Below are positions 28,706-31,859 of a stretch of 64,000 bases of DNA, one piece after another; position 1 is the stretch's first letter, and each line of letters begins with the position of its first letter. The translations under genes and the position numbers were made by a program. This DNA is from Marivivens geojensis (GTDB taxonomy: Bacteria > Pseudomonadota > Alphaproteobacteria > Rhodobacterales > Rhodobacteraceae). Where the stretch lies: NCBI RefSeq assembly GCF_023540835.1, contig NZ_JALKCU010000001.1:1054001-1118000 (forward strand), given 5' to 3'. A model generated the notes under the pieces. The model was not told the origin of the DNA. It did no database searches and worked only from the letters and a program-made list of their open reading frames with translations.

Positions 28706-29251
28706 ATGGCTTTGGCAGCCGAACGGGCAGACTACGCATTACAAAAGGCGATGGAACAGTTTTGGGCCGTCGGTATTGAGGCGACCCCTTATCCAGAGTT
28801 GGTCAAGGTCACAGGGCTGAGCCGAAAGGCGCTCTATCAGCAGTGGCCCGACAAAACGCGGTTGGTGCATGACGCCTTGGATCGCTACCGTAAATCCGTG
28901 CTCATTGATCAATGTGAGATATTCAAAACACCTGGTCCAGCGGCGGTGACACGGTTTTGGGATACTCTTGAGGCTTCGGTTGTTCCTGATTGGCAGGGGT
29001 GTTTTTTGCTTCGCTCGGCAGCGGGCGAGTTGCGCCATGATGAAGAGGCGCGGCAGATGTATACGGAACACCTATCCACCATTCAGCGCGGGATCATGAT
29101 GTCATTGAAGGGGCACCACAAGGACCCAGCGGGTGCTGCGTGGCAGGCGGTCGGGGTGATGACTTTGGTCACGGCACTGGCGGGGCAGGGCATGCCCTTG
29201 GCCATGCTCAAGCCCGTTTTTGCGGCAGGTCGTGCGGCAACTGCGTTCTAG
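28706..29251 (+). CDS. TetR-like transcriptional regulator
   Basis: The protein has 181 residues from ATG 28706, with AAGGGG upstream; the in-frame start at 28670 precedes that site. Residues 1-50 look like a TetR helix-turn-helix (ALQKAMEQFWAVGIEATPYPELVKVTGLSRKALYQQWPDKTRL), where GLSRKALYQQWPDK corresponds to the usual GVSKGTLYHHFPSK recognition helix. The C-terminal helical domain contains HLSTIQRGIMMSLKG and would hold the ligand. Its stop overlaps the convergent LysE gene by 4 bp. Regulation of that exporter is possible, but no operator was identified. Confidence 0.82.
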   Translation: MALAAERADYALQKAMEQFWAVGIEATPYPELVKVTGLSRKALYQQWPDKTRLVHDALDRYRKSVLIDQCEIFKTPGPAAVTRFWDTLEASVVPDWQGCFLLRSAAGELRHDEEARQMYTEHLSTIQRGIMMSLKGHHKDPAGAAWQAVGVMTLVTALAGQGMPLAMLKPVFAAGRAATAF

Positions 29252-29850
29252 TGACCGCGGATAATCGGGATAAGGGTCAACACCAATAGAACGGCCATGG
29301 TGATGTTAAACGCCCGCAGTCGACCATGATTGTTCAAAAAACGCCGCGCCTGTTGGCCCAATGCGTTCCAGAAAAAGATCGAAGGCAGGTTGGTGCACAT
29401 GAACGTGAGAGCCACCAGCAGAACCTGCGAAAAAGAATGGTCTGAAGTGTAGGCGCTGATCGCGGTCAGGGCCATGAACCAGCCCTTGGGGTTCACCCAT
29501 TGAAACGCTGCGGCCTGTAGGAATGTCAATGGTTTGCCTTCTGCCTCTGGTGCGTCTGGCGATTTGGGCGCGGCATTCGCGATCTTCCACGACAGATAGA
29601 TCAGATAGGCGACCGAGCCCCATTTCATCATGACCAGCATGATCGGAAAGGTGTCAAACACCTGCACCAGCCCTGCGCCCAGTACAACGATCATAAAGGA
29701 ATGGCCCAAGCCCACGCCCAGAATATGCGGGATCGAACGGCGAATGCCAAAGTTGGCCCCTGAGGCCATCAACATCATGTTGTTCGGCCCTGGCGTGATG
29801 GAGCTGACAAAGGCAAAGCCGATCAGGGCGAGGATCAATTCGTAAGTCAT
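29248..29850 (-). CDS. LysE family translocator
   Basis: The protein has 200 residues from ATG 29850 (a longer frame starts at 29886). It is a small inner-membrane protein with about six hydrophobic segments and the family signature SSITPGPNNMMLMASGANFG near the N terminus, followed by GLGHSFMIVVLGAGL. FQWVNPKGWFMALTAI is a second conserved LysE/RhtB element. LysE/RhtB proteins export amino acids such as lysine, arginine, threonine and homoserine. The substrate is unknown. It lies immediately downstream of the DUF1127-hairpin array on the same strand, separated by a terminator-like hairpin at 29915-29947. Confidence 0.9.
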   Translation of the reverse strand: MTYELILALIGFAFVSSITPGPNNMMLMASGANFGIRRSIPHILGVGLGHSFMIVVLGAGLVQVFDTFPIMLVMMKWGSVAYLIYLSWKIANAAPKSPDAPEAEGKPLTFLQAAAFQWVNPKGWFMALTAISAYTSDHSFSQVLLVALTFMCTNLPSIFFWNALGQQARRFLNNHGRLRAFNITMAVLLVLTLIPIIRGH

Positions 29851-29914
29851 GTCTCGTGCTGTGACAAATGTCTCAGGGCGCTGCAATCGAAATCGTGAGG
29901 GCTAGAAAAGCGAA

Positions 29915-29947
29915 CGGCGGCACCCGGGAGGAGGAGGGGTGCCGCCG
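29915..29947 (-). repeat. CcsR-type hairpin 1 (promoter-distal, terminator-like)
   Basis: An 11-bp perfect stem, CGGCGGCACCC (29915-29925) with GGGTGCCGCCG (29937-29947), around an 11-nt loop GGGAGGAGGAG on the plus strand. On the minus strand it is followed by TTCGCTTTTC, so this unit probably also ends transcription of the array. Confidence 0.8.
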
Positions 29948-29956
29948 TGCTATTCG

Positions 29957-29989
29957 GCGAACGCTCAGGGAGGAGGAGAGAGCATTCGC
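29957..29989 (-). repeat. CcsR-type hairpin 2
   Basis: Stem 29957-29966 with 29980-29989, 10 bp, including one pair that is G-U only in the minus-strand RNA. The 13-nt loop is canonical (29967-29979). Confidence 0.8.
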
Positions 29990-30002
29990 TTGGCGAAGCG
30001 TC

Positions 30003-30025
30003 CGGTCAGGGAGGAGGAGAGACCA
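30003..30025 (-). repeat. CcsR-type hairpin 3
   Basis: Short stem GGTC/GACC (30004-30007 with 30021-30024), extended by one minus-strand G-U pair. Canonical loop at 30008-30020. This is the weakest stem of the array. Confidence 0.7.
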
Positions 30026-30041
30026 TCTGCTTCTATGCGAA

Positions 30042-30066
30042 ACCTTCAGGGAGGAGGAGAGAAGGT
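30042..30066 (-). repeat. CcsR-type hairpin 4
   Basis: Stem ACCTTC/GAAGGT, 6 bp (30042-30047 with 30061-30066). Canonical loop at 30048-30060. Confidence 0.75.
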
Positions 30067-30084
30067 CCCGTATCTGAATTTGGT

Positions 30085-30119
30085 GCGGCGGGATCAGGGA
30101 GGAGGAGAGATCCCGCCGC
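30085..30119 (-). repeat. CcsR-type hairpin 5
   Basis: An 11-bp perfect stem GCGGCGGGATC/GATCCCGCCGC (30085-30095 with 30109-30119). Canonical loop at 30096-30108. Confidence 0.82.
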
Positions 30120-30125
30120 TATTTC

Positions 30126-30157
30126 ACGGACCTTCAGGGAGGAGGAGGAGGGCCCGT
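30126..30157 (-). repeat. CcsR-type hairpin 6, expanded loop
   Basis: Stem ACGGACC/GGCCCGT (30126-30132 with 30151-30157) with one minus-strand G-U pair. The 18-nt loop carries one additional GGA triplet compared with the other units, extending the complementarity to G/A-rich sequences. Confidence 0.7.
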
Positions 30158-30172
30158 AAACTCTGTTCTTTT

Positions 30173-30211
30173 GCGGCAGCCCCCTAGGGAGGAGGAGAAG
30201 GGGGCCGCCGC
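30173..30211 (-). repeat. CcsR-type hairpin 7
   Basis: Longest stem, 13 bp, 30173-30185 with 30199-30211, including one pair that is G-U only on the minus strand. Canonical loop at 30186-30198. Confidence 0.82.
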
Positions 30212-30218
30212 TTTAGTT

Positions 30219-30253
30219 ACGATCCGCTCAGGGAGGAGGAGAGAGCAGATCGT
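30219..30253 (-). repeat. CcsR-type hairpin 8
   Basis: An 11-bp stem, 30219-30229 with 30243-30253, with one minus-strand G-U pair. Canonical loop at 30230-30242. Only 3 nt separate it from hairpin 9. Confidence 0.82.
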
Positions 30254-30256
30254 TGT

Positions 30257-30289
30257 CGATGGTCCCAGGGAGGAGGAGAGGGACCGTCG
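30257..30289 (-). repeat. CcsR-type hairpin 9 (nearest the DUF1127 gene)
   Basis: Stem 30257-30266 with 30280-30289, 9 of 10 positions paired on the minus strand (one A-C mismatch that would be G-U on the plus strand). Canonical loop at 30267-30279. It starts about 11 nt after the DUF1127 stop codon. Confidence 0.8.
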
Positions 30290-30300
30290 TATTCTATATC

Positions 30301-30507
30301 TTAGGCGCCGTAGGCAGCTTCGATTGCGATGCTTTTGATCATCGAGCGGGAGATGCCCAGATCAGCAAGTTCGCGGCCAGAGAGCTGCGACAGTTCGTTG
30401 ATTGTCGCGCGGTATACTTTGTATTTGGCGAAGCGGTCAGCGAGGGTTGCGAAGAAGCCGCCGAAGGCGGGAGTGAAACCAGTGCGGACGTCGTTTGCGT
30501 AAGCCAT
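30301..30507 (-). CDS. DUF1127 small basic protein, CcaF1-like RNA-binding candidate
   Basis: This is a 68-residue protein ending in the DUF1127 motif: a short arginine-containing helix YKVYRATINELSQLSGRELADLGISRSMI, where L-s-d-r-e-L-a-D-i-G-i-s-R is the family signature. The N-terminal half (MAYANDVRTGFTPAFGGFFA) is a less conserved extension. In Rhodobacter sphaeroides the DUF1127 protein CcaF1 binds RNA, promotes maturation of CcsR sRNAs and affects RNA turnover; its gene is upstream of those sRNAs in one transcript. The identical arrangement here supports the same role. I see no confident -35/-10; in Rhodobacter this promoter is read by RpoH-type sigma factors. The 278 bp upstream, to the mrp start, holds no other gene. 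Confidence 0.88.
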   Translation of the reverse strand: MAYANDVRTGFTPAFGGFFATLADRFAKYKVYRATINELSQLSGRELADLGISRSMIKSIAIEAAYGA

Positions 30508-30785
30508 CTTATTCTCTTTTCATCGTGTCCCGCATCGGGCGGGGCTGTTTCATCTTTCGGCGTGTTGTAGTTCGCCGTGGCATCTTGCTGCCGTTGGACC
30601 TAATTTGGCGCTAATGCTGCGAATGCACAATTGGGACTTTCGTCAATGCCGCCATGCAGCAAATGCATATGAAGTGCTGACCTATTTCACATAGGCGTTA
30701 CATTGCAGGGGAATTGGGTTGTGATTTGCCTATTCCGTGACATGTTTTGCCGCTGAATTGGGCAGAGTTTGAACAGGAGGGTCTG

Positions 30786-31859
30786 GTGACCTTAGGGAAA
30801 GATACGGTTCTTGAGATATTGAACGGCATTGCGCTGCCCGCAGGTGGGACGCTGGTGTCCAAAGATCTTGTTCGGGCCTTGACGGTTGAGGGTGGGCAGA
30901 TTCGCTTTGTGCTTGAGGCGCCCACGCCAGACGAAGCACGCACGTTGGAGCCCGTTCGTCTGGCGGCGGTCGAGGCCTTGCGCGCTGTTGAAGGTGTCAC
31001 GGATGTGCAAGCTGTGATTACAGCGCATGGACCATCGAAACCCGCGCAGCCTGCGCCGAGCCTCAAGGTCGGTCGTCACCCGACGCCCCAAGCTGGCCCA
31101 CAGGGTGTGCCTGGTGTTAAGCGGATCATCGCCATCGGATCGGGTAAGGGCGGCGTTGGGAAATCCACCGTGTCGAGCAACCTCGCCGTTGCTTTGGCGA
31201 AAGCTGGTAAAAAGGTCGGTCTACTAGATGCAGATATATATGGTCCCAGCCAGCCGCGGATGATGGGCATCACGGGGCGGCCATCGTCGCCTGATGGCGA
31301 ACATATAGAACCGCTTCACGCGCACGGCGTTACAGTCATGTCCATTGGCCTGCTCGTTGATCCGGACAAGGCGGTGATCTGGCGCGGCCCGATGCTGATG
31401 GGTGCGTTGCAGCAGATGCTTGGTCAGGTGAACTGGGGCGAGCTGGATGTCTTGCTGATCGACCTGCCGCCGGGGACGGGCGATATTCAACTGTCGCTTT
31501 GCCAAAAGACCCACATGACGGGCGCTATTGTTGTATCGACCCCGCAGGACGTGGCGCTGATTGATGCGCGTAAGGCGATTGATATGTTCAATACCCTCAA
31601 GACGCCGATCTTGGGTCTGATTGAAAACATGTCGACCTTCCATTGCCCGAATTGCGGACATGAAGCGCATATCTTTGGGCATGGTGGGGTGGCTGCGGCG
31701 TCCCAAGAACTATCGGTTCCTTTCTTGGGATCGCTTCCAATCGACCTTGATACCCGACTGGCGGGTGATGCGGGGACACCTGTTGCCGCTGGTGGGGGCG
31801 CAATGGCCGATGCCTATGCAAGTCTCGCCTCGAAGTTGATCGAGGGCGGTCTGGTGTAA
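30786..31859 (+). CDS. mrp: Mrp/NBP35 family iron-sulfur cluster carrier ATPase
   Basis: The protein has 357 residues from GTG 30786, which follows AGGAGG at a 5-base spacing; the ATG at 30747 lacks such a site. An N-terminal DUF59 (MIP18-like) domain, about residues 5-80, is followed by a deviant P-loop ATPase: [25 protein letters not shown], then [16 protein letters not shown] and [11 protein letters not shown]. The CxxC pair that holds a bridging 4Fe-4S cluster in the dimer is [16 protein letters not shown]. Mrp proteins deliver clusters to target apoproteins. A strong terminator follows. Confidence 0.95.

Follow-up and report, generated by a model that had tools for sequence, protein, structure and literature searches.

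A conserved LysR-type box upstream of a DUF1127 gene and its nine-hairpin cuckoo-type RNA array suggests a candidate regulator in Rhodobacteraceae

In the 64-kb stretch of Marivivens geojensis DNA analysed here (the window), a DUF1127 gene is followed by tandem hairpins, for which an earlier note had claimed homology to the CcsR or cuckoo RNAs. What kind of array is this, and what would switch it on? The array belongs to the cuckoo/alpha-r14 family, of which it is an ordinary and well-formed representative, and holds nothing new in itself; the new element is its promoter, where a conserved box, as judged from the sequence, suggests which regulator may act on the array.

A nine-hairpin array of the alpha-r14 family behind a DUF1127 gene

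A motif scan of the window revealed nine copies of CTCCTCCTCCC, all on the minus strand (29926–30278), compared to 0.04 expected from shuffles over 64 kb. Each copy lies in the loop of a predicted hairpin (–13.5 to –31.2 kcal/mol upon folding of 55-nt segments), and the nine stem-loops with their anti-Shine-Dalgarno loops occupy 30289–29909, at loop-to-loop spacings of 37, 44, 50, 40, 48, 40, 41 and 42 nt. Hairpins 1, 2, 3, 5, 6, 7 and 8 display the identical loop UCUCCUCCUCCCU, hairpin 4 carries an extra triplet and hairpin 9 an 11-nt core (CUCCUCCUCCC); all nine stem sequences differ from one another. The earlier note had read the same hairpin count, 37–50-nt spacing, strand, loop inventory and stem diversity from the letters, and scan and folding recovered them.

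Folding together with covariation in the genus supports hairpins 2 (30219–30253), 3 (30173–30211), 4 (30123–30160), 5 (30085–30119), 6 (30038–30070), 7 (29995–30033) and 8 (29957–29989), all on the minus strand; support from the genus alignment is weak for hairpin 1 (30257–30289, minus; 67.9% of cells paired). The G+C-rich hairpin 9 (29909–29951, minus) and the T-run behind it, read directly from the sequence, probably constitute an intrinsic terminator, which thus bears the motif in its loop as well. The linkers between successive hairpins measure 3, 7, 12, 3, 14, 4, 5 and 5 nt, the only long ones being an A-rich linker of 12 nt before hairpin 4 and an A/U-rich linker of 14 nt before hairpin 6, a candidate RNase E site; the 12 nt ahead of hairpin 1 form the 3′ side of the DUF1127 gene. 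These lengths suggest a grouping into 3+2+4 hairpins, where the earlier note had considered two hairpins per mature RNA.

The ccaF1-like DUF1127 gene (30301–30507, minus; 68 aa; 49.5 bits against PF06568, cut-off 23.3) lies directly upstream on the same strand, and the array (29909–30289) is probably the 3′ UTR of its transcript. The encoded protein is 97% identical to that of Marivivens donghaensis KCTC 42776, the nearest named relative found. The Rfam model RF02344 (alpha-r14) exceeded its gathering threshold of 58.8 bits twice (72.6 and 65.5 bits), over 30171–30295 (hairpins 1–3) and 29909–30037 (hairpins 7–9), with hairpins 4–6 (30033–30165) scoring below it at 54.8 bits. At E 0.001 or better, the model matched 245 of 295 family genomes and none of 14 control genomes; 37 of the 295 passed the Rfam cut-off. 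Of 73 family loci, window included, 70 had a DUF1127-like ORF on the same strand as the array. With two matches above gathering, the DUF1127 gene upstream and its recurrence across the family, the proposed CcsR/cuckoo homology is supported; CcsR RNAs share the loop motif. Alpha-r14 RNAs are described, in the available text of PMC10746234, as three hairpins with an identical CCUCCUCCC in each and highly different stems, so that a constant loop on stems of varying sequence is not a new observation.

The size of the array is unremarkable, too. The 73 loci comprise the window and 72 fetched loci (12 from pattern hits and the 60 best-scoring RF02344 loci), and strong arrays are over-represented among them as a result of this selection. 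Arrays held 2 to 19 hairpins (median 8), with fewer than nine in 49 loci, nine in 9 (window included) and more in 15; these counts are approximate, because the second scanner that produced them returned fewer hairpins than the first in some loci (5 vs. 8 in L095, 19 vs. 24 in L134), the first having been replaced after finding 7 of the 9 window hairpins. Array size was therefore rejected as a special feature, and the suggestion that this array is slightly larger than in Rhodobacter is unremarkable against this range. As is exemplified by L113 (37, 67, 42, 72, 40, 66, 42, 67, 42, 74 and 40 nt), alternating spacings in several loci point to two-hairpin units; other loci look, by eye, as if they end in a three-hairpin unit. 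A very large array, that of L134 in genome G194 (19 to 24 hairpins, depending on the scanner), shows a three-hairpin higher-order repeat with a spacing of ~47/93 nt.

Covariation was assessed in an alignment of six arrays from the genus, a seventh (L035, seven hairpins) being left out. Stems were paired in 92.7% of 587 cells and two-sided changes were seen in 24 of 101 stem pairs, values that none of 500 shuffles reached in either case; further pair types were less clear, their count being reached by 20 of 500 shuffles. Sliding the structures along the alignment lowered the paired cells to 34–47%, a control in which the unshifted structure has an advantage, as it was taken from the window sequence itself. 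Stem pairs are thus maintained by compensatory change and not by simple drift. The earlier view that loops stay constant while stems drift holds for the loops, which are nearly invariant, and for the differing stems, but not for the drift: individual hairpins were recognisable, by eye, as orthologues across the genus arrays.

A LysR-type box and the promoter of the array

Upstream of the DUF1127 gene, positions 30644–30658 (CAATGCCGCCATGCA) read TGCATGGCGGCATTG on the transcribed minus strand, a LysR-type (VtlR/LsrB-like) box that agrees at 14 of 15 positions with the published VtlR binding motif, quoted as CAATGCAGCCATGCA (PMC12595884). This is the sole exact match in the 3.18-Mb genome, one-mismatch sites being found at C12:66745 and C13:148026, and it lies 136 nt upstream of the DUF1127 start. 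Within 350 nt upstream, 64 of the 70 DUF1127-array loci, window included, match the box at 12 to 14 of 14 scored positions; 12 of 14 was reached by 1.2% of 1400 dinucleotide shuffles, a figure that overstates independence because the loci are related. The box is on the transcribed strand in 64/64 cases and 80–141 nt before the start codon in 63/64 (25 nt in L116). The six loci that score below 12 count against a LysR model, as does the GG in the window box where the Rhizobiales VtlR consensus GCAT-N3-TG-N3-T has TG. That consensus is the box given for Agrobacterium tumefaciens, whose VtlR directly controls three sRNAs according to the available text of PMC7486931.

Among 28 named loci (at least six from genomes of the 70-locus set), 23 scored 12 or higher and five below. 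Hairpin loci that lack a DUF1127 hit (n = 8) were evenly split: the box plus TTGTGCA is found upstream in L090, L103, L107 and L270, and no box in L266, L268, L269 and L271. Further DUF1127 loci possess the box in L265 and L267 and none in L273. In a class-wide scan, two of four family genomes had the exact box–TTGTGCA pattern, compared to none of 285 genomes from other families; this promoter form thus looks family-restricted, or has diverged elsewhere. A different arrangement was observed in L264 (genome G085, about 1500–2260), where one of two tandem boxes precedes a stand-alone two-hairpin unit and the other a DUF1127 gene with hairpins of its own; the family search with RF02344 had found nothing in G085.

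Alignment of the 64 upstream regions on the box revealed a consensus in which it is preceded by TATGCATTTGC and followed by ATTGTGCA-N2-GCAGCA. In the window, these minus-strand elements correspond to TATGCATTTGC directly 5′ of the box (30659–30669), TTGTGC as the probable –35 element (30625–30630) and GCAGCA within the spacer (30615–30620), followed by a putative –10-like CAAATT (30602–30607) 17 nt after TTGTGC, which is a degenerate hexamer in the relatives. A TTG-type –35 element stands 27–28 nt downstream of the box start in 63 of 64 regions, and a degenerate –10-like hexamer occurred at a spacing of 16 (26 times), 17 (29 times) or 18 nt (three times) among 63 loci, as counted without a shuffle control. 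The array promoter hence contains a conserved –35/–10-like pair, from which sigma specificity is not readable. An AGGTCA half-site (30678–30683, minus) lies 25 nt upstream of the box and recurs in 22 of 64 loci, always at that distance. The intergenic region is common to the array promoter and a divergent gene on the plus strand (30747–31859) for an Mrp/NUBPL-type iron-sulphur P-loop NTPase.

An LsrB-like LysR protein widespread in the family

The genome contains 22 matches to the LysR-type HTH, from which a candidate was picked for its top HTH score and its resemblance to LsrB; the PDB search was run on this candidate alone, and all 22 were compared with LsrB afterwards. The gene (L231:1495–2400, that is G000:C11:351957–352862) encodes a protein whose best PDB match is 9hh1 (E 7.4e-68; next 5e-29), the LsrB of A. 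tumefaciens (PMC11975290). In the comparison with all 22 loci, LsrB again matched the L231 protein best (230 bits, next 141; 38.9% identity over 296 columns), the two being best matches in both directions, and 47 of the first 64 residues, in the N-terminal DNA-binding region, are identical. Homologues at E 1e-50 or better were present in 117 of 120 family genomes, with 50 to 100% identity and a few as fragments. A search of five proteins against NCBIfam gave no family at its cut-off among the best 25 matches.

The redox cysteines of LsrB (C144, C236, C244 and C273) are absent, with V, V, V and A in their places in 10/10 proteins (the candidate and nine relatives), and, in contrast to A. tumefaciens, no LysR gene was found beside the trxB that was located. 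We therefore call the protein LsrB-like and make no claim of LsrB-type redox sensing. A box-like sequence, GGTTGCATAGCTGCTATG (L231 1421–1438), was noticed by eye upstream of the gene in only two of ten loci (G000 and G006), which is why autoregulation is not claimed. Six of ten loci likewise show, by eye, an AGGTCA...TGACCT palindrome ahead of the LysR gene. A second regulator at AGGTCA sites may link the promoters of the array and of the LysR gene. Genomes in which RF02344 had no match showed a lower LysR identity (median 70, 19 genomes) than those in which it had one (median 78, 94 genomes), a difference confounded by phylogeny; 7 of the 120 genomes had been dropped from this comparison (G000, G006, G034 and G144, and G028, G063 and G120, in which the LysR protein had no match), and G147 was counted as negative because it was missing among the listed positives, 30 negative genomes not being itemised.

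LsrB was called unique to Rhizobiales in 2025, in the accessible part of PMC11975290, and control of sRNAs by VtlR/LsrB varies even there, S. meliloti LsrB not controlling the AbcR RNAs in the account available from PMC7486931. In the literature covered by our search, outside of which most subscription papers fall, we found no LysR control of these operons, no treatment of CcsR together with VtlR/LsrB, nothing on VtlR in Rhodobacteraceae and nothing on LsrB at this operon in Rhodobacterales.

Proposed control of the array and comparison with known systems

We favour, at a probability of about 0.68, a LysR-activated DUF1127-array transcript that is cut into anti-Shine-Dalgarno sRNAs, which lower the translation or stability of many mRNAs. 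From the conserved box and the presence of the LysR protein, we infer that a regulator of the VtlR/LsrB kind would bind 30644–30658 and activate the minus-strand promoter. The transcript would run from the DUF1127 gene through the nine hairpins and end at hairpin 9; its 3′ UTR would be cut in the A/U-rich linkers, probably by RNase E assisted by the DUF1127 protein, as in R. sphaeroides, to yield sRNAs with two to four hairpins each. Their exposed CUCCUCCUCCC loops may pair with ribosome-binding sites of the GGAGG type and thereby make many mRNAs less well translated or less stable, and the presence of several equal loops presumably raises dose and valency.

Extended to the family, this reading would make the near-universal Rhodobacteraceae VtlR/LsrB-like LysR protein a dedicated activator of a cuckoo regulon, with or without DUF1127; the DNA-binding region being kept and the redox cysteines lost, it would respond to another signal, and the anti-Shine-Dalgarno dose per promoter would be set by how many hairpins a locus has (2 to about 24). 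On this broader proposal, our judgement is evenly balanced.

Loop complements are abundant in the genome. GGGAGGA-N4-9-ATG occurs 56 times, compared to two for the reversed pattern; before ATG, AGGGAGG is found 50 times (reversed, three) and the canonical AAGGAGG 49 times (reversed, 15), all of these being pattern matches at any ATG, true start or otherwise. Pairing partners of the loops thus look plentiful and similar to ordinary ribosome-binding sites, and the comparable frequencies of AGGGAGG and AAGGAGG give no sign of target selectivity. Such non-selective abundance would suit hairpins that act as decoys, titrating a protein (the CcaF1-like DUF1127 protein or Hfq) or mimicking the 16S 3′ end, and silencing no chosen mRNAs. 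Many equal loops on different stems fit titration as well, and CcaF1, a DUF1127 protein, is reported to bind RNA (PMC10253847, as far as its text is available). Against this stand related RNAs described as acting on mRNAs: in the available texts, CcsR1–4 target the flhR mRNA (PMC8307010), and for NfeR1 many mRNA targets are predicted, reached through the same motif (PMC10746234). All in all, we consider decoys improbable, somewhat more so than a purely RpoH-driven operon.

That operon, transcribed from an RpoHI/RpoHII stress promoter as in R. sphaeroides, would leave the box to another regulator or a repressor, with the LsrB-like protein uninvolved; we hold it to be unlikely. It gains from the missing LsrB cysteines and from CYATnTT-like –10 elements in many relatives, which we take to resemble the alpha-proteobacterial heat-shock –10 element. 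It gains, too, from the published assignment of the R. sphaeroides promoter to RpoHI/RpoHII, where the accessible parts of PMC10253847 and PMC8307010 do not mention LysR control. The 14/15 agreement of the box with the VtlR motif, the 47/64 agreement of the candidate's N-terminus with LsrB and the wide distribution of both box and LysR protein in the family speak against it, and recognition by RpoH can coexist with activation by LysR. Far less probable is a leader or attenuator function for the LysE-type gene downstream (29251–29850), which is on the array strand and has its start codon ~60 nt past hairpin 9: the sequence following the array is common only to G000 and G006 (L039) and differs, by eye, in the other five genus arrays aligned, and the role was rejected on synteny. 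Equally dismissed, and the least credible of all, was a function of the plus strand, whose GGGAGGAGGAG repeats would serve as ribosome-binding sites or encode a repeat protein. Open frames do exist on that strand, but most spacings are not divisible by three, the hairpins show covariation, and it is the minus strand that carries the box, the promoter elements, the DUF1127 gene and the terminator-like hairpin; plus-strand coding was rejected on spacing and covariation.

If the box is real, a single ancestral regulator would be common to the cuckoo RNAs of Rhodobacteraceae and, in Rhizobiales, the sRNAs and DUF1127 genes under VtlR control, and redox sensing through LsrB cysteines would be argued against as the signal. 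The added value is that the regulator of CcsR-type operons becomes a directly testable hypothesis.

Three known systems come close to the one described here. NfeR1 of Sinorhizobium meliloti, an alpha-r14 RNA, resembles it in its CCUCCUCCC loops on differing stems and in the RF02344 model that fits hairpins 1–3 and 7–9 here; as far as it is described, it is a separate 123-nt transcript, whereas the present hairpins lie behind a DUF1127 gene. The ccaF1-CcsR1–4 operon of R. sphaeroides (CIN1 locus) has the same order of a DUF1127 gene, tandem RNAs and a 3′ terminator in the available text of PMC10253847, which gives it an RpoHI/RpoHII promoter, in contrast to the LysR-type box before the promoter here; it contains four named RNAs, compared to nine hairpins known from sequence. 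The VtlR/LsrB regulon of Rhizobiales, finally, shares the box and the DNA-binding region, and its targets, activated by VtlR in the accounts available, include sRNAs (PMC7486931) and DUF1127 genes (PMC12595884). The present system differs from it in belonging to another family, in lacking the trxB neighbour and the redox cysteines, and in having putative targets that carry cuckoo RNAs.
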